Shown here: positions 357-11,543 of the stretch, piece after piece
How the letters are laid out: every line of letters begins with the position of its first letter
Numbering within the stretch: position 1 is the first letter of the stretch
Virus record (IMG/VR): IMGVR_UViG_3300010931_000047
Span: 1 to 20,002 of that record
DNA: 20,002 nucleotides
Source of the DNA: a virus
Reading direction: 5' to 3' (one strand)
Position numbers and translations under genes: made by a program
Notes under the pieces: model-generated
Seen by the model: only the letters and a program-made list of their open reading frames with translations
Told to the model about the DNA's origin: nothing
Database searches by the model: none

Positions 357-1037
357 CTACTCCTCGAAAAAACCCGGCACTCCGGATTGAACTTGCGGAA
401 CAGTCGGGCGAGTGCCAGCCCGAAAGTGCGCCAGGAAACGATTGAGTTCTGCATACAGAAAATTCGAATATATTTTATCGATCGGCACCCGGACGATGGC
501 AATGCGATTCGCAAGTATCGGGTAGTCCGGACAGTAGGAAACGTAATCGGCCTGATCGTAGCCGGCGCACATTGCCTGACAGTAAACCTGGTCTTTGTCT
601 TCCGGCAGCATTCCGACCTTTAGTGCGTATTCGTGCTTTGCGTGATCAACCCGAACCTTGCCCTCTCCGGATCGATCTTTCAGCAGCCAATCCGGACTGC
701 ACCCGAACTCATCAATGGTCGGATGCACGACAAAGCCAGGACGGTCGATTTTTATTTTGTACCCATATTCCTGCTGCCGCATTATTTCATACCGGGCGAT
801 AAGCCAATCCTCGCGCTCTTTGCCAAGTCGAATCGATGCGGGAGTTTTATAGCCGAAGCCCTCCATATACTTGTCGAGCGCCGCTTCCCGTTGCTCGACT
901 TCCCATTGCATGATGTTCAACAATCCAGTTTGTGCCGCCAGGGTTCCATGAGCGACAGTTTTAAGCCGCGTTGACGTAACCCGCCCAAGCCGTAGCCCGA
1001 ACCACTCACGGCTTTGCTGCCCGACGTAATGCCTCAT
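357..1037 (-). CDS. YqaJ / lambda-Exo-like recombination exonuclease
   Basis: The 226-residue product resembles YqaJ-type viral recombinases, relatives of lambda Exo in the PD-(D/E)xK nuclease superfamily. These degrade one strand of double-stranded ends so that an annealing protein can load. The N-terminal block REWFGLRLGRVTSTRL matches the family pattern R-x-x-E-W-x-x-x-R-x-G-x-(I/V)-T-(A/S)-S-(R/K). Residues 71-77 hold the GKE-type helix. SPDW gives a candidate catalytic Asp116, and GEGKV gives the E-x-K pair Glu125/Lys127. The segment around 149-170 (DQVYCQAMCAGYDQADYV) matches the family's Q-containing motif. The E-x-K is followed by VRVDH rather than the usual C-P, so the active-site strand is slightly divergent. 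The start overlaps the recT stop in an ATGA, which fits a paired exonuclease/annealase recombination system. The fold assignment is firm; the exact substrate preference is not shown. Confidence 0.85.
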   Translation of the reverse strand: MRHYVGQQSREWFGLRLGRVTSTRLKTVAHGTLAAQTGLLNIMQWEVEQREAALDKYMEGFGYKTPASIRLGKEREDWLIARYEIMRQQEYGYKIKIDRPGFVVHPTIDEFGCSPDWLLKDRSGEGKVRVDHAKHEYALKVGMLPEDKDQVYCQAMCAGYDQADYVSYCPDYPILANRIAIVRVPIDKIYSNFLYAELNRFLAHFRAGTRPTVPQVQSGVPGFFEE

Positions 1038-1909
1038 ACCGGCAACACCAGTCGAACGGCCTCGTCAAAGCACTTTTCAGGAAGCAACGACAACGACACG
1101 ATGCCGAATGCCCGACAAACGGTTTCGGTTGCAATGCTGTGTTCCGAACAAAGGTCGGTAAGTTGGCTGGTCTGCCGTGAGCTGATAATTCGAACGGCCT
1201 CGCCTTCGAACGTCACAGGCTCGATCACATCGAGAACCTCCATTGCTCTCTGCATCTTGCCTTCGGTGTCGTGGGGCCAGTGTTTCCATGCTCTGCGGAT
1301 CACGGCCTTTTTCTGCATTTCACCCCGGAACCTTGACCGCCAAACTGCGCCGCCCGGTTTCTTGCCAGGGCGTGATTTAGTCGCGGCTTCCTCGACCGCT
1401 TCAAGGTCTTCGCGATCCATCACTTCGGTGTGCTGCTTTCCATTCCTGAAGCTGGCTATGCAGTAAGCGTGAGTAACCTCGCCACGATCCTTTCGTGCTT
1501 CCTCGTGCATTATGTACCGACCATCCGGACCTGATCCGACGCTAAAAACCGGATCATTCTCGCAAACGAGCGCCGCCTGTATCGCGATCACCACGCCTGT
1601 TCCATAGGCCATCTGCTCCATGCCGCGATAGCCGATGCAGAGCGTCGCCTTGTCCTTGTAAGGGATTAGGTACAACAACGACTGCGACGGTGCCAGAGTC
1701 AATCCTGTGTACGCCACATCGAGCAAGGCATTGTGAATCGACTGCGGTGTACACCTCCGCAGGTCCTCGCTGCCCTGAATGATCTGCAACGCGAAATTCC
1801 GCTGTGCGGCAAACTTCAACGTCTTGTCGGGTCGGCCCGCATTGAATCTCGCGCTCAATGATCGGTCGGTCAGGATTTCTTTGTATTCAGCCAATGCGTG
1901 TGTGGTCAT
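1034..1909 (-). CDS. recT: RecT family single-strand DNA annealing protein
   Basis: The 291-residue protein matches the RecT/Red-beta class of recombinases, which anneal complementary single strands exposed by a partner exonuclease. Recognisable blocks are the N-terminal LKFAAQRNFALQII helix, TPQSIHNALLDVAYTGLTLAP (residues about 53-74), and LLYLIPYKDKATLCIGYRG (about 78-96). The last block corresponds to the family's A-x-x-G-L-x-P and Y-(L/I)-I-P-Y-x-x-x-x-x-x-x-I-G-Y-K/R-G motifs. KKAVIRRAWKHWP (about 207-219) matches the conserved K-x-x-x-(L/I)-R-R-x-x-K segment. The length is typical of the family. The ATG overlaps the stop of the 72-residue gene by 4 nt and its own stop overlaps the exonuclease start in the same way, so all are probably translated together from one message. 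This pair probably supplies the phage's homologous recombination. Confidence 0.93.
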   Translation of the reverse strand: MTTHALAEYKEILTDRSLSARFNAGRPDKTLKFAAQRNFALQIIQGSEDLRRCTPQSIHNALLDVAYTGLTLAPSQSLLYLIPYKDKATLCIGYRGMEQMAYGTGVVIAIQAALVCENDPVFSVGSGPDGRYIMHEEARKDRGEVTHAYCIASFRNGKQHTEVMDREDLEAVEEAATKSRPGKKPGGAVWRSRFRGEMQKKAVIRRAWKHWPHDTEGKMQRAMEVLDVIEPVTFEGEAVRIISSRQTSQLTDLCSEHSIATETVCRAFGIVSLSLLPEKCFDEAVRLVLPV

Positions 1910-2124
1910 AGGTTTTTATCCTGTTCGCTGCATTTCGGTTGTCGCCCGATAAATTCATTAATCTGTTGCACAAGTTCTGAAATTACAATCCTTGCCGTAT
2001 CTGGCAAATCACCAAAAGCGATCAGCCCCTGCAATGCGCCATTTACGAATGCCAGCATTCCGAACGGTTCTTTATCGCCGTGAGAGGCAACGATAGAAAT
2101 TGCCTGCTGTCGTGGTTGTTTCAT
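1906..2124 (-). CDS. Small unknown protein between csrA and recT
   Basis: A 72-residue protein that I do not recognise. The start ATG overlaps the csrA stop (ATGA), with GAGCAGGAT just upstream, and its own stop overlaps the recT start by 4 nt. It is therefore locked into the csrA-recT-exonuclease operon by translational coupling on both sides. Residues 20-45 (PFGMLAFVNGALQGLIAFGDLP) are fairly hydrophobic with glycines but too broken for a clear membrane helix. Residues 45-60 form a likely amphipathic helix (ARIVISELVQQINEFI), and the tail is polar. There is no cysteine motif or catalytic signature. A small partner or modulator of recombination is possible by position only. Confidence 0.75.
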   Translation of the reverse strand: MKQPRQQAISIVASHGDKEPFGMLAFVNGALQGLIAFGDLPDTARIVISELVQQINEFIGRQPKCSEQDKNL

Positions 2125-2309
2125 ATCCTGCTCTCTGCTTTTTTCTCTTTGTAGATTTCCTCCCGATCAATCAGGAATGTCTTGTTTGCATAAAAACCAA
2201 GCCGCACATGGTGGGCTTTGATATTTCGAATTTCGATTGTGAATTTTTCACCAGACGATTCGTGCGTAACGATTATTCGTTGTCCTTCTGTTCTGGTAAG
2301 ACTCAGCAT
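2121..2309 (-). CDS. csrA: CsrA/RsmA-like translational regulator
   Basis: The 62-residue product has the CsrA fold signature along its whole length. It begins MLSLTRTEGQRIIV, with Leu4 and Arg6 as in E. coli CsrA strand 1, followed by strands EKFTIEIRNIKAHHVRLGFYA and the diagnostic DREEIYKE, in which Arg49 corresponds to E. coli Arg44, the main RNA-binding residue. A 5-residue insertion (around HESSG) lengthens the strand 1-2 turn. CsrA dimers bind GGA-containing sequences, often in hairpin loops over ribosome binding sites, and repress or activate translation. Both RNA-binding edges (strand 1 and strand 5) look intact, so the protein is probably active. It has a strong AGGAG five nt before the start and stands first in a tightly overlapping operon with recT and the exonuclease. 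A terminator-like hairpin lies directly upstream. Host or phage mRNA targets are unknown. Confidence 0.93.
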   Translation of the reverse strand: MLSLTRTEGQRIIVTHESSGEKFTIEIRNIKAHHVRLGFYANKTFLIDREEIYKEKKAESRI

Positions 2310-2320
2310 TTTTGCTCCTA

Positions 2321-2353
2321 TAAAAATCCGGAGCCAGGTTTCCCCGACCCCGG
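2321..2353 (-). terminator. Terminator-like hairpin between the DUF932 gene and csrA
   Basis: On the minus strand CCGGGGTC (2353-2346) can pair with GGCTCCGG (2335-2328) in an 8-bp stem with two G-U pairs and a 10-nt loop, followed at once by ATTTTTAT. This looks like a weak intrinsic terminator after the DUF932 gene. The T-tract is short and runs straight into the csrA ribosome binding site, so it could instead be a 5' structure that protects or controls the csrA message. Confidence 0.5.
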
Positions 2354-2361
2354 CCTTCAGG

Positions 2362-3528
2362 TTATGTCGCTATGGGAACCGGAACTGGCTCGCACATCCG
2401 CATCCAACTGGCATCGGTGATGTCGATCAGCCTGGAGCCAATCACTTCAAGGTCTGATGCCCTATCGTAATCGACCACTTCACTGTTAGCGACCTTTGTT
2501 ACCGCATTGACTACTCCCCACCTCGAATAGTCCCGGTCTTCGATCAGGTTCCTGAGCACTTCGTCCGACTCGGTTTGATTGAGTCCATGATCTTTCGCAA
2601 GCAATTCGATTGCCGGAATCGGGTATTTGATTCCGTCGCCCTCTCGCAAGCTTCTGAGTTTGTCGCCCATCTGGTTCACGAACTCAGGTGTTGCAATTGC
2701 GTGTATGACGTCATTCACCTGGCTGAGAATCGTTTCGTCCTCAGGTTTCTTGCTCTTGTCCGACAAAATTTCGAAGCCTTCGCCCTCGATCAATGCTCCG
2801 CCGAGGTGACCGCGCTTGTATTCGAAGGCATCGGTTTTCCCGAACACGCAACCGTTGTAGCAGAAACTGCGATAAAAGAACGCCGATATCGACACTGAAC
2901 CTGAGCCAATCTCCGAGTTGCGGAGACAGAAGCCCGGCTGAATAATGTCCGGTGTTCCATCGCGAGTTTTACCAATTTCCTGTTTCATTTCCTCGCCGGT
3001 CAAAAGCACTTTGACGTAGAGGTTGCGGTCGGTCACTTGCGAACTGAGCAAGGTTGTTTCCAGATTGCCCCTGACGATAGCGGGCAACGCGGCTCCGAGC
3101 ACCTGGTCATTGTCGATTCTCTTGTACCAATTCGACAGAAATGCTCTCAGTTTATTGTCCATCGTTCGCAACAGGCGAGTTCCCGGCTCACGTTCGAATA
3201 ACTTGTTGACCGCATCCATGACGATATCGGTGTGGTCCTCAAGCATCCGGGCATAAAACTTCCACGGAATTTGCAGCAGACCCGCTATCTGTCGGTGAGC
3301 GTGTTCCGTTATCTCTAATCGTTCGAGACAGGCAAGCCCGGTAACCGGGTAATTTTCGGCAACTTCCGATTCCTGCCCGTTCTGCAAAACGACAGCCACG
3401 TTACCTGGGAATCCGGGCATCGGCACCATTCGAACATCGTTCCTGGTCGATGCGACGTAATCCTTTTTCGCGTGTGACTGGCGCTGCACTTCCGTAAGCA
3501 GTGCTTCGATTGTCATTCCACTTTTCAT
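2362..3528 (-). CDS. DUF932 phage/plasmid-like protein
   Basis: The 388-residue protein resembles the DUF932 / phage-plasmid-like family (TIGR03299), which is common in early regions of phages and on plasmids and has no established biochemical role. Supporting segments are the N-terminal helix and short strands (residues 1-60), LEITEHAHRQIAGLLQIPWKFYARMLED (about 70-98), the strongly family-like RTMDNKLRAFLSNWYKRIDND (about 120-140), and a later LYVKVLLTGEE then GFCLRNSEIGSGSVSISAFFYR block. The C-terminal third is helical and ends with a segment resembling the family's ViNAvT-x-x-A region (GVVNAVTKVANS). The start at 3528 has only a weak AGGCG ribosome binding site, and no better in-frame start is evident. 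It lies between four small genes and csrA. The family is well supported; its job is not known. Confidence 0.87.
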   Translation of the reverse strand: MKSGMTIEALLTEVQRQSHAKKDYVASTRNDVRMVPMPGFPGNVAVVLQNGQESEVAENYPVTGLACLERLEITEHAHRQIAGLLQIPWKFYARMLEDHTDIVMDAVNKLFEREPGTRLLRTMDNKLRAFLSNWYKRIDNDQVLGAALPAIVRGNLETTLLSSQVTDRNLYVKVLLTGEEMKQEIGKTRDGTPDIIQPGFCLRNSEIGSGSVSISAFFYRSFCYNGCVFGKTDAFEYKRGHLGGALIEGEGFEILSDKSKKPEDETILSQVNDVIHAIATPEFVNQMGDKLRSLREGDGIKYPIPAIELLAKDHGLNQTESDEVLRNLIEDRDYSRWGVVNAVTKVANSEVVDYDRASDLEVIGSRLIDITDASWMRMCEPVPVPIAT

Positions 3529-6441: not shown

Positions 6442-6891
6442 CTATTTAGGTGTACCGACAACAGCATGAACGTGATTGATTCCGTTGTCCAACTCGGCAC
6501 CGCCATTGTAACGAATACGGGTGGTGATGACCGCCTTAAGCTCGGTGTCGTCGAGTGGCTCGATATATTCAACCGTTCGGTTGGTGCTGATAAAGTGCCA
6601 CACGTCAAGCGCATCACCACCAGTGGGTGCGTCGTCGACAATATCTTTACTGAACTTCACTGCGTACAGACCATCATTCAAATGATTCGGCATGATCCAG
6701 TCGGTTGCAGCTTGCAATTGCGTTTGCCTTACACCCTCGGTTTTTTCGATTGTTCCGTCCACACGAATCCGTAAAATCGCTATTGCAGTGTTGCCATTTT
6801 CAACTGCATGGTGAATATTGTCGCGACCAGTGACGGTAACAACTGGCACAAGTACCAATCTTTGAATGATGCTGCAGAGCAATAAGCCCAC
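6442..6891 (-). CDS. Unknown protein encoded after the tail fibre
   Basis: A 149-residue frame opening with a GTG whose G is also the last base of the stop of the long tail gene, so it is probably translated by re-initiation. Alternative TTG/GTG starts a few codons in cannot be excluded, because no strong ribosome binding site is visible. The segment GNTAIAILRIRVDGTIEKTEG followed by QAATDWIMPNHLNDGLYAVKF resembles small proteins of unknown function found next to tail fibre genes in other phages ('DGTV ... W-I-x-P-N ... Y-x-V-x-x'). That points to a minor virion or tail-tip protein, by position and loose likeness. There is no catalytic signature and no membrane helix. Confidence 0.68.
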   Translation of the reverse strand: MGLLLCSIIQRLVLVPVVTVTGRDNIHHAVENGNTAIAILRIRVDGTIEKTEGVRQTQLQAATDWIMPNHLNDGLYAVKFSKDIVDDAPTGGDALDVWHFISTNRTVEYIEPLDDTELKAVITTRIRYNGGAELDNGINHVHAVVGTPK

Positions 6892-9800
6892 TAGCTAAAA
6901 TTCTCTGCAAACGTGCCAATCAAAGTTGTTTTGGCGTCGCGTGAGCGAAGGTTAATCAGGAATCGGCCATTGGCAACATTCAAATTCGGTGCGATGCCCT
7001 CCGGCCAGCCAACGGTCCCGGCGATAGCCGTATCCCACGCAATCGTGCGTGGCGTTACGCCCTGTGTAACCTCGATTTCCAATTGACCGAGTCGACTCGT
7101 AGCGGGCCAGTTGGTGATCGTCAATGTCGTGATGCTTGCAGCATCCAGATTCAACAATACCGACTGACCTGTAGTGTAATTGATCGTCGTACTCGCAACA
7201 CCCGTCACCACCTGGTGCCTGACTGCAAAATCATCCATCAATGCGCGGATAATAGAATTGTCCTGCCAGTTCCAATTATTGGCTATATTCGCAGACGCAG
7301 TTCTATCAAGAAGATTCGCTTCGAGGATGCCTCCATAACTGGTGCCAGTTATTGCATCGAAATCTGCGTCGGTGGAACCAGCGATGAGACTCGTGATGTT
7401 GGTCATAGTAACCGTACCAGCAGTTATAGCTTTCAAGTCAATATCGCCACCATTAGGCACTGAAAGATCAAGTTGATTTGGTGTTGCACTCGTGGCCCCC
7501 CAGCCACGAATAGTTGGATTCAATGAGTTGTCAAAACTGTTACCGAAAATTATAATTAAATTCTGGTCATCGGCACCGGCACGGAAAGAGGCGTTACCCG
7601 TACTTGGGCTACTAACAATCCCGGCAGTGTTTAAAAACTGCCATATTCCAAATACATTTTCATTGGCCGATTTGTTGAGTAAATTTGCGTCGGCAATGCC
7701 ATCGTGCAAATGACCAAGCATCGAATACGCAGCGTCGCCCTCGGCCGGCGTCAGGAAAAGCGCGTCGCCCTCGGCCGGCGTCAGGAAAAGCGCGTCGCCC
7801 TCGGCCGGCGTCAGGAAAAGCGCGTCGCCCTCGGCCGGCGTCAGGAAAAACCCATCGTAATCGGCCTGCAAAGGAACGACCGCGCCAGTGCGACCATTGA
7901 ACGAATCGACAGGGCCGCTGTTGATTACCCATGTGCCATCGCCTTGTAAAACCTTCGCGGCATCTGCGGCAGGGGCATCCGGAACCAGCCCGGCGCTCAG
8001 AATGGTATCTACCACGTTATCGCCGAATTTTGGCGAGGTCGGATAAATAAAAATCGAGTCGATGCGCAGCGTGTCCAGCGTGCTCGTCGCGGGCCAGTCG
8101 CTGAGAAAGAACCTGTAGAACTGCGACGCGTCCGACTCGGGCACGTGGAAGAACAGCGACACAGTCAGAAACGCCGCAGTGGAGCGCGCTAAGATTTTCT
8201 TTGTGGAGCCGAACTTATTCCGGGTTCCACCCGTCTCGGCGGAGAAGCCCTCGACGCCAATTTCCAGCTCATGCTTGTCGAAGAAGGTATTGGTCTGCGT
8301 CTTGTAGGTGATGCGGAACTCATAATTGCCCGCGTTGATTCGGTGTCTGCGCAGGCCGATTAGCGCGGAGCGCGAGCCCGTGCCACCCGACGAGATTATA
8401 TCAACGGCATTCGAGCCATTAGTCCCTGCGCCGACGATCAGGGACACGGAGCCGGTCTGCGTCGGGCCGGTGCCCGGCTTAACGTCTGTGGTCCAAAACC
8501 CTCCGGCGAAGGCCGCAGCGGACTTGTCGAAGTCCGGATCGATCAGGATATTGGTGGCCGGAGCTCGCGGTGCAGCGGTTGCGGTTGTCGTGCTGGTATC
8601 AGGCTCGAACCTGCTGACATTTTTATCAGCACCACGCGTGCGCATCCAATAGAAGCGCCTCCTCGGATTTTCCCTCAATATTTCTCTGTACGGCGGTGCA
8701 GCAATCCTACTGATAATTACAGCGGTTGAGCGAACATTAGTATCGCTCGCGTGTATTTCGATTCCCCTAACCAGGGCTGACTCAGGAATCGTACACGACA
8801 ATTGAACTCCTTCAAACACGGGCGTCGCGATCAATGATATCGGTGGCGGCACTATCTCGTGTTGGTCGTCAGTGGGGGTCACATCACAAGGCAAGAATGA
8901 AATCCGAAAGTTCACGCCCGACTGATCGAACCCACTGATGCGATCAGCCATGAACGGCGCCATGTTTCTCAACGGTGCATTTTGTTGGACAAGACTGCGA
9001 TGCTGACTCGGACCATCCAAAAGCGGTAACGCAAACTGCGCAGGCACATCACCAGTGAGTGCAAAAAAGTGCCCCGCCAAATCAGGGAATGTCTGCCCGG
9101 AACCATCTATCAGCCACAACATTGCACCGGGCGAGCCAGCACCACCAGCACCGCCATAGGTATGAAAGATCGGATTACTTGAGATGAAAAACGTAGTGGG
9201 TTGTATCGAATCAGCCCCGTCCAGACGAATTTCGCCAGCTATGCCGAAGTCTCCACCTCGACAAACAACGCAAAGTGCAGCACCACCAGCACCACCAGAA
9301 CCGCCAGCACTTTTCATGTGCGTACGTCCGGCCAGACCTATTTTTAATCCTGCCCTCTGTCCGAACGCTCCGCCGCCGCCGCGCATATCGGTTGGTATGC
9401 CGATGATCGAACCATTGCCGGCGTCGTCAACCTCAAGGATTAGGTTCGGGAATGAATCGAAACGCCCTTGCGTAAAATATCCCGTAGTCACCCACACCCA
9501 ACTAGGCTCCCCGCCATCGTCGGGCTGCCGGATCAACAAGCCACCGTGCGTCTTGCTATTTCCAATGAATCCCTGTACGCCAAAATTCTCTTTGTTGCGA
9601 AAATAGTAGTGCTCATTTACCAGGAAAGTATCGACGCCCGAAATATGGCCTTGCCCCGTGCCGATGATCGAACCATTGATGGTCAAAAAACCTTTAACGC
9701 GGAGTTGCACATTCTGTTCAATGTTCAGAGTCGTGGTCGAGCTGATCGTAAGCGGCGCAGCGTGATAGAAAATCGCGCCCGCAGCATTCATGTCGGCATC

Positions 9801-11543
9801 ACCGACCAGAGTGAATGTTCCGGCATTGGTCACATTGCCTGTCATCAATCCCAGCACACCCGACAGCGCAGTGCCTTCCTGTGAATAAAAAGCATCGGGT
9901 AGACAAATAGTGGCCGTGATCGGTGGAATCTCGTCGGCACGTTCTGAACTGCCGAACAATTTCAGCTTGACGCCTTTGAGCCAATCGACGGTCATTCCAT
10001 GCACGACCATTGTCCGAACCAGGTTGCTCCCGGCCTGGCTGTAATCTCGAATATTCGACAAGTTCACCCGAACGGCATCGCCCACTTCAAGCGGGTTCAT
10101 CAGGTGGAAACCATTTATATCCAGGCGTAAGGGAGGCCCTGTATACATATCGCGCAGCGAAGTAAGCAACTGCCGCAAAACCTGTTCGGTAAATCGAGTA
10201 CCGACCAGACCACGGAATGACATTCGCTTTTCGAGAGCCTGTCCGTGTTTCGCAATCGACAGAGAATCAACAATGATGGTCGAGCGAATATATCGATCAC
10301 CATTCCAGTTCCAATCGACACGCAGATTGTTTTGCATCGATCCCATATCGTGCCGTAGATTGCCCGATCCAATCACATTGCTGTTGTTGATCTCGAACTG
10401 GTACGGTGAATCGGACAGGGAAGGCACCATGCGTTTCAAGCCGAGCTGACCGTCTGCATAAACGGGCGAGAACAACCCAAGCAGCAAATAAAGTTCTGTC
10501 TCTAAAAACGTCTTGGCATCCTGTTTTTCAATGCCATCGAATCGCAGAATTACCCCAGCCGTGTCGTCGGTCGGCACCCACAGATCGTCGCCAATTGCCT
10601 TGAAGTCAGCCAATCGAACGAACGCTGTCGGAACGGCAGCGTGCCAACTGCCGGGCAACACATTAGCGGTCCCTTCAATGACCCCGGTCAGGACCGCGTA
10701 GGCCAGTTTGACAGCCGGTAATTCGAGGTAGACGTACTCCTCCACCTTCGGTCGGCGGTCGCTAGCCGACGCGAGATTGACTTCGACAGCCTGCGCAGTG
10801 GTCTGCAATGCTCCACGAGTAACATTCGTAAAACTGTTCCCGACAATATCCGCGGTCGGGCAGCTAATGATTTCCTTTGTCGAATCGATCCGAATGTAAA
10901 TTACATCGAGGCCCGGAGCATCCGAATAACTCGTGCCATGCACGTTGCCCTCGAATCCGGACAAATCGAGCACTGGAATAGTGGTCGCTGCTTCTGCGAT
11001 CGACGCGGTAAGGTAGGTCTGCGCAAGTTTGAAAATTTGTTTTTTTATGGTCCGCTGAATATCCGTGCACTTGATTGAGTATTTGCCTTCCTTTGTCTCA
11101 ACAGCCTGAATGACCTGGGTCTGAAAAAGCACGAAGTTATCGAAGTCGGGATTGTCGCCGGTGCTTGTGCCATCAAGAATACCCGCACCATCCTGCTCGC
11201 TCTTGTAGCCGACAAAGAACTGCACCGTGCGACCACGCAGGCCGATATTGTTTGTTGTTAGCTGGGTTCGAACGACATTGGTAAACGCGTTCGCAAGGTC
11301 AACAATATCGAACGACATTGAGCCGATAGTCGCATTGGCACGATCCGGGTTCAACGTTTGGCTCGTGGCACTGATTTCAACGATCGCGTTCTGTATTACG
11401 GCAAGCGCAGTCGGCACATTCGCGATATCATCGTGCGAGCTGAGGTGCTGCAACGTGCCATCGAAATCGATGCTGACCACATAGCGCGGCTGTTTCGAGC
11501 CGTCAACATTGTCAGTGGCAAATAGTGTGTTATCAGCTCTCAC
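6891..11543 (-). CDS. Tail hub / tip and fibre protein, 1550 residues
   Basis: This very large protein occupies the lambda gpJ position. Residues about 1-540 look like a tail hub domain (for example GRTVQFFVGYKSEQDG and MNPLEVGDAVRVNL). Residues about 575-635 are a repetitive beta stretch (TISSTTTLNIEQNVQLRVKG). About 715-805 is glycine-rich (SAGGSGGAGGAALCV). About 895-1000 looks like a fibronectin-III domain. About 1000-1175 looks like a carbohydrate-binding-type beta sandwich. Then come a fibre joint (DSFNGRTGAVVPLQADYD), a 10-residue tandem repeat (FLTPAEGDAL), and a beta-rich C-terminal tail domain also seen at the ends of other phage tail proteins. It probably closes the tail tube and binds the host receptor. 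The start is a GTG overlapping the previous stop by 11 nt. The hub call rests on position and character; domain limits are approximate. Confidence 0.82.
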   Translation of the reverse strand: MRADNTLFATDNVDGSKQPRYVVSIDFDGTLQHLSSHDDIANVPTALAVIQNAIVEISATSQTLNPDRANATIGSMSFDIVDLANAFTNVVRTQLTTNNIGLRGRTVQFFVGYKSEQDGAGILDGTSTGDNPDFDNFVLFQTQVIQAVETKEGKYSIKCTDIQRTIKKQIFKLAQTYLTASIAEAATTIPVLDLSGFEGNVHGTSYSDAPGLDVIYIRIDSTKEIISCPTADIVGNSFTNVTRGALQTTAQAVEVNLASASDRRPKVEEYVYLELPAVKLAYAVLTGVIEGTANVLPGSWHAAVPTAFVRLADFKAIGDDLWVPTDDTAGVILRFDGIEKQDAKTFLETELYLLLGLFSPVYADGQLGLKRMVPSLSDSPYQFEINNSNVIGSGNLRHDMGSMQNNLRVDWNWNGDRYIRSTIIVDSLSIAKHGQALEKRMSFRGLVGTRFTEQVLRQLLTSLRDMYTGPPLRLDINGFHLMNPLEVGDAVRVNLSNIRDYSQAGSNLVRTMVVHGMTVDWLKGVKLKLFGSSERADEIPPITATICLPDAFYSQEGTALSGVLGLMTGNVTNAGTFTLVGDADMNAAGAIFYHAAPLTISSTTTLNIEQNVQLRVKGFLTINGSIIGTGQGHISGVDTFLVNEHYYFRNKENFGVQGFIGNSKTHGGLLIRQPDDGGEPSWVWVTTGYFTQGRFDSFPNLILEVDDAGNGSIIGIPTDMRGGGGAFGQRAGLKIGLAGRTHMKSAGGSGGAGGAALCVVCRGGDFGIAGEIRLDGADSIQPTTFFISSNPIFHTYGGAGGAGSPGAMLWLIDGSGQTFPDLAGHFFALTGDVPAQFALPLLDGPSQHRSLVQQNAPLRNMAPFMADRISGFDQSGVNFRISFLPCDVTPTDDQHEIVPPPISLIATPVFEGVQLSCTIPESALVRGIEIHASDTNVRSTAVIISRIAAPPYREILRENPRRRFYWMRTRGADKNVSRFEPDTSTTTATAAPRAPATNILIDPDFDKSAAAFAGGFWTTDVKPGTGPTQTGSVSLIVGAGTNGSNAVDIISSGGTGSRSALIGLRRHRINAGNYEFRITYKTQTNTFFDKHELEIGVEGFSAETGGTRNKFGSTKKILARSTAAFLTVSLFFHVPESDASQFYRFFLSDWPATSTLDTLRIDSIFIYPTSPKFGDNVVDTILSAGLVPDAPAADAAKVLQGDGTWVINSGPVDSFNGRTGAVVPLQADYDGFFLTPAEGDALFLTPAEGDALFLTPAEGDALFLTPAEGDAAYSMLGHLHDGIADANLLNKSANENVFGIWQFLNTAGIVSSPSTGNASFRAGADDQNLIIIFGNSFDNSLNPTIRGWGATSATPNQLDLSVPNGGDIDLKAITAGTVTMTNITSLIAGSTDADFDAITGTSYGGILEANLLDRTASANIANNWNWQDNSIIRALMDDFAVRHQVVTGVASTTINYTTGQSVLLNLDAASITTLTITNWPATSRLGQLEIEVTQGVTPRTIAWDTAIAGTVGWPEGIAPNLNVANGRFLINLRSRDAKTTLIGTFAENFS
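7732..7849 (-). repeat. 30-bp tandem repeat, about four copies, in the tail fibre gene
   Basis: Four consecutive 30-bp units (starting near 7732, 7761, 7791 and 7821) are identical apart from the outermost bases. A faint fifth unit may follow around 7851-7870. In the gene frame each encodes FLTPAEGDAL. As 30 is a multiple of three, gain or loss of units keeps the frame. The units are GC-rich compared with their surroundings, and the perfect nucleotide identity indicates recent expansion by slippage or recombination. Confidence 0.95.

Follow-up and report, generated by a model that had tools for sequence, protein, structure and literature searches.

We analysed a phage fragment from an IMG/VR virus record, a stretch of 20,002 bases referred to throughout as the window. 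Its minus strand carries a DUF932 gene followed, after a gap of 52 nt, by csrA, an ORF of 72 aa, recT and an exonuclease gene (Table 1). The last four ORFs matched their description in an earlier note, as did the three 4-nt ATGA joins between them (2121–2124, 1906–1909 and 1034–1037), and csrA does stand at the head of a recombination operon, with a CsrA whose fold is intact and with RecT and the exonuclease recognised by profile. RecT scored above its Pfam cut-off of 24 bits. The exonuclease fell below the Pfam YqaJ (PF09588) cut-off, with 17.2 bits against 22; despite this, its function is supported by the match to the phrog_149 exonuclease profile. Phage RecT/YqaJ exonuclease operons share the order of recT and then exonuclease, and the operon in the window differs from them in being headed by csrA.

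Table 1. Features of the csrA–recT–exonuclease locus, in window coordinates.
Feature	Position	Strand	Evidence or remark
csrA, 62 aa, CsrA-family RNA-binding protein	2121..2309	-	PF02599, PDB sequence matches, AlphaFold, Foldseek
72-aa ORF, between csrA and recT	1906..2124	-	no Pfam/PHROG match
recT, 291 aa, single-strand annealing protein	1034..1909	-	PF03837 94.1 bits; phrog_148 E=1e-45
YqaJ/RecE-type exonuclease, 226 aa	357..1037	-	phrog_149 E=1e-14; phrog_434 E=6e-5
DUF932/phrog_1362 gene, adjoining the csrA leader on its upstream side	2362..3528	-	phrog_1362 E=4e-39
Leader hairpin, 11 bp, GAAA tetraloop	2328..2353	-	conserved in three lineages
U5 run 3' of the hairpin, terminator-like	2322..2326	-	also in L015, not in L004
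AGGAG Shine-Dalgarno of csrA; one of three leader GGA triplets	2315..2319	-	

The CsrA of the window exceeded the PF02599 gathering cut-off (41.8 bits against 27), and the CsrAs of its relatives, described below, scored 53.8 and 27.4 bits. Its sequence matches in the PDB were CsrA/RsmE proteins. Compared with E. coli CsrA (PMC7652899), with which it has the fold in common, it shows about 36% identity in the structural match and carries a 5-residue loop insertion between strands 2 and 3, because of which its Arg49 aligns with E. coli Arg44. The RNA-binding residues that had been pointed out in it, Leu4, Arg6 and Arg49, are all present and are invariant across the 29 phage CsrAs that we aligned (the window included), in which the only invariant columns are L2, L4, R6, A41, R49, E51 and I52. 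The stretch TFLIDREEI, in the RNA-contact region, is unchanged among the three related lineages. The AlphaFold monomer model (pLDDT 94.7) has the beta-beta-beta-beta-beta-alpha fold, and its best Foldseek matches were CsrA/RsmA/RsmE chains (1vpz, 2bti, 5z38 and 2mfc), with TM scores (query) of 0.71–0.86 to most RsmA/CsrA/RsmE chains and E-values of only 0.008–0.1, which are weak because the protein is short. The model leaves strands 1 and 5 unpaired, as would be expected were they to pair between the two subunits of a dimer. Sequence and model thus indicate a divergent but intact CsrA that keeps the fold and the RNA-contact residues and, therefore, probably dimerises and binds GGA-containing mRNAs. 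In these residues (L4, R6 and the R44 equivalent) it resembles other small CsrA/RsmA proteins of tailed phages, namely Pseudomonas F116 RsmM and those of Burkholderia DC1/JC1, Vibrio 1.232.O and VvAW1 (PMC7366521, PMC8450108, PMC9144972).

A search for relatives of the window returned a 36-kb contig that is nearly identical to it (99.97%) and, in addition, two other lineages, L004/L005 and L015. In all three related lineages, csrA lies between the DUF932 gene and recT. Identity to the window is 91% for DUF932, 60% for CsrA and 85% for RecT in L004/L005, and 81%, 53% (full-length alignment) and 76%, respectively, in L015, so that csrA diverges faster than either neighbour. In L004/L005, the place of the 72-aa gene is taken by an unrelated ORF of 73 aa, which csrA still overlaps by ATGA, a 22-nt gap lies 5' of recT, and two small ORFs precede the exonuclease gene. 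In L015, the 72-aa gene is absent, csrA overlaps recT directly via ATGA, and no exonuclease was recognised downstream within the sequence covered. The position of csrA beside recT is, consequently, conserved in the related lineages, unlike the 72-aa gene and the precise overlaps. A 19-nt block within csrA that is identical in the three lineages, TGATTGATCGGGAGGAAAT, was considered as a sign of synonymous constraint. This was rejected, since DUF932 and recT, compared by codon identity, show runs of similar or greater length. A scan of GTDB genomes with RecT and csrA for a host gave no match.

Several other features of these phages were recorded. At window positions 3414–3468 (minus strand; about codons 21–39 of DUF932), nucleotide conservation across the three lineages is unusually high, with exact blocks of 23 and 29 nt. 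The window also holds nearly four perfect 30-bp tandem repeats (7732–7849; FLTPAEGDAL) inside a 1550-aa ORF (6891–11543), and the near-identical 36-kb contig is broken near these repeats. This 36-kb relative carries a RecA-dependent nuclease gene (Ref, PF16786; L093:4130-4624, minus strand) downstream of the recombination genes. This phage also has a gene resembling TET-associated glycosyltransferase/beta-glucosyl-HMC-alpha-glucosyltransferase and a ParB-like gene (L092:14575-15360 and L092:15582-16217), both upstream of a terminase-size gene, hinting at DNA hypermodification.

Does translation of the recombination genes depend on translation of csrA, as had been claimed from the chain of overlaps? 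For recT, "depends on" is too strong, because the gene keeps its own Shine-Dalgarno-like AGGA about 10 nt upstream. A strict coupling chain is also at odds with the gap before recT and the small ORFs before exo in L004 and with the abutting csrA and recT of L015. Stop/start overlap occurs at all three joins of the window; among the relatives, the overlap of csrA with the next gene is kept in both L004 and L015, and the other joins differ. Furthermore, 4-nt overlaps occur at 6 of the 25 adjacent gene pairs in the window and are ordinary here, and the overlap chain probably reflects the usual joint expression of phage genes rather than a device dedicated to dosage. For exo, which has no visible Shine-Dalgarno sequence upstream, coupling may matter.

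We then asked how common csrA is near recT in other phages. Of 50 csrA-bearing viral contigs, 14 carry RecT; in 5 of 10 RecT-bearing csrA contigs, the two genes are no more than 3.5 kb apart. This proximity exceeds that of uniform placement (p=0.012), but it is not significant against a null in which both genes are early (p=0.56), and, of 64 diverse recT loci, just 2 had csrA within the 3–5 kb flanks covered, of which one lies on the query's own contig. Proximity as a general rule was rejected on these two grounds. On the other hand, the arrangement recurs in two phages with another RecT family. L030 has the order csrA–71-aa ORF–recT–exo, with csrA overlapping the 71-aa ORF; this ORF, examined as a homologue of the 72-aa ORF of the window because of its position, is not homologous to it. 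L110 has csrA–recT–exo with overlaps of 1 nt and 4 nt. The two RecTs are relatives (59%), BLASTP found no similarity between that of L030, tested for the L030/L110 family, and that of the window, and both CsrAs differ from the window type. A scan with the L030 RecT gave 59 loci, among which L110 was the sole csrA–recT–exo arrangement beyond the query's own contig. These observations show csrA at the head of recT/exo operons to be a recurring but uncommon arrangement and no general rule. Had csrA never been conserved beside recT in related phages, this would have refuted the earlier note; it is so placed in the three related lineages and in the two phages with another RecT family.

The contexts of other phage csrA genes are varied. 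In the P. aeruginosa phage PP9W, csrA, small ORFs, a PD-(D/E)XK nuclease gene and RecT form one run over 3 kb; in Providencia PSTCR8lys, csrA is followed by an RdgC-like gene; and in Vibrio VvAW1, csrA overlaps a DEDD-type exonuclease gene. The known phage csrA genes that we inspected lie in contexts other than that of the window: away from recT in Vibrio phages of the D279 and 1.232.O type, in a repressor-proximal operon in F116, and beside the capsid gene in JC1, where csrA is described as a moron gene whose product is possibly virion-associated (PMC9144972). An Acinetobacter "phage" match, MD-2021a, was set aside; it looks like host chromosome, with csrA beside alaS and thrA.

In each of the three lineages, the 52-nt csrA leader folds into a hairpin of 11–15 bp. 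The window has 11 bp closed by a GAAA loop, L004 has 15 bp and a GAAAU loop, and the stem of L015 is extended, with at least 11 bp. No change is seen in the 5' arm and loop, GUCGGGGAAA, while the 3' arm varies, and GTCGGGGAAA occurs in one copy per phage record. At the inner stem pairs 7 and 10, both bases have changed in a way that preserves pairing, and both sides of the outermost counted pair differ between L015 and L004. In a 7-pair covariation test on the three lineages, a small sample, the hairpin outscored every slid control, and its value was attained in 12 of 500 shuffles. In the window and L015, the stem is followed by a U5 run, so that the hairpin looks like a terminator or attenuator; a GC-rich stem followed by a U-run, as in intrinsic terminators, is seen in these two and not in L004. 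In the first 5.2 kb of the window, the hairpin with its U5 is the best terminator-like site. Rfam covariance models gave no match at the gathering threshold in the window, L012, L013 or L015. The leader had been proposed for binding assays with the CsrA, and what we found is a conserved hairpin that is closer to a terminator than to a CsrA site of high affinity.

Taken together, the reading that we favour, at about an even chance of being correct, joins a host-directed action of CsrA to hairpin gating of csrA–recT–exo. The divergent phage CsrA would be made as the first cistron of the recombination operon. The hairpin between DUF932 and csrA is most likely either a leaky terminator/attenuator or a structured ribosome-binding-site leader, and it would set the amount of csrA–recT–exo made. 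Because about 10 nt separate the hairpin from the csrA Shine-Dalgarno sequence, expression of csrA–recT–exo would occur by readthrough, unless a promoter lies in the end of DUF932. The main targets of the CsrA are probably host mRNAs, with altered host physiology or defence during infection as the outcome. In favour of host-directed action, phage csrA genes are scattered over varied contexts, as a trans-acting factor would be expected to be; this action also fits the published correlation between the presence of RsmA/CsrA in phages and in their hosts and the anti-CRISPR role proposed for RsmA-like phage proteins (both PMC8450108), as well as the precedent of RsmQ, a CsrA homologue on another mobile element for which control of the host proteome was demonstrated (PMC9928087). 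RsmQ differs in being encoded by a plasmid (pQBR103), not a phage, and in having no recombination operon. The retention of csrA beside recT in three lineages, despite its faster divergence, counts for the favoured reading. The L004 leader counts against it, since without a U-run termination is not conserved.

Could the phage CsrA instead bind its own leader, at the loop GGGGA and the AGGAG of the Shine-Dalgarno sequence, and so repress csrA and, via coupling, recT and exo, limiting recombination dosage? The model here is the leader of E. coli csrA, which is autoregulated by translational inhibition (PMC7652899). Such autoregulation is possible because, among the three GGA triplets of the window leader, those of the loop and the Shine-Dalgarno sequence are 22 nt apart, and CsrA bridges RNA sites 10–63 nt apart (PMC7652899). 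The invariance of the loop and 5' arm against a changing 3' arm would also suit a binding site, and in the window and L015 the csrA Shine-Dalgarno sequence pairs partly with CCU/CC at the leader start. However, in L004 it is not sequestered, and a GGA within a Shine-Dalgarno sequence is near universal. The loop GGA is half inside the paired, GAAA-tetraloop hairpin of 11–15 bp, whereas most SELEX ligands have no more than 4 contiguous pairs and a paired GGA lowers affinity (PMC7652899). Moreover, the loop lacks the A-N-GGA context, and the hairpin differs from the E. coli csrA leader in being long and in having a GAAA tetraloop and a U-run. We regard autogenous control as rather unlikely.

It is also conceivable, and in our judgement unlikely, that csrA entered an early operon by chance and is functionally unconnected with recombination, with the hairpin serving as the terminator of the DUF932 transcript. 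The many other contexts of phage csrA, the free swapping of small genes around it and a csrA–RecT proximity not significantly greater than that of two early genes would all agree with this. But csrA keeps its place in three lineages even where CsrA identity has fallen to 53%, two or more unrelated csrA–recT–exo operons exist, and a terminator so close to the csrA Shine-Dalgarno sequence would silence csrA, barring readthrough or a promoter within DUF932. Quite improbable, finally, is the proposal that a CsrA-type regulator is repeatedly placed at the head of RecT/exonuclease operons and gates phage recombination post-transcriptionally through the conserved leader hairpin, as a CsrA-responsive attenuator setting annealase and exonuclease dosage.

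Phage csrA genes as such are already known, with CsrA homologues in 30 of 2,517 phages (PMC7366521). The remark in the earlier note that phage copies are little studied is fair, although they have been the subject of published work (PMC7366521, PMC8450108, PMC9144972). In the literature searched, we found no report of a csrA–recT/exo linkage in phage, of the csrA leader hairpin or of a physiological target of any phage CsrA; relative to that literature, the linkage and the hairpin are new. The csrA–recT–exo operon and its conserved leader hairpin supply a specific cis-target that can be tested, and may connect a global RNA regulator with phage recombination. Should the protein act on the host instead, it would be a candidate for an early factor of host takeover or anti-defence, a role already proposed for phage proteins of the RsmA type (PMC8450108).

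A strong hairpin before csrA was also considered as a general rule (7/23 versus 13/218, p=0.001). This was rejected, and the wider trend is suggestive only, because about three independent groups remain after relatives are collapsed. In unrelated phage csrA genes (L026, L060, L064, L071 and L075, of which L026 and L071 come from one isolate), the 65 nt 5' of csrA hold a strong hairpin directly before the Shine-Dalgarno sequence, with no Rfam match to these five. Some phage contigs hold multiple CsrA matches: four on that of L026 (G016) and two each on those of L042 (G029), L071 (G049) and L073 (G050). The five leaders have common flanks, CAUCAC-stem-GGGAUG or related, followed by CCAAGGAG, and their stems covary; this hairpin is possibly a further csrA leader element.
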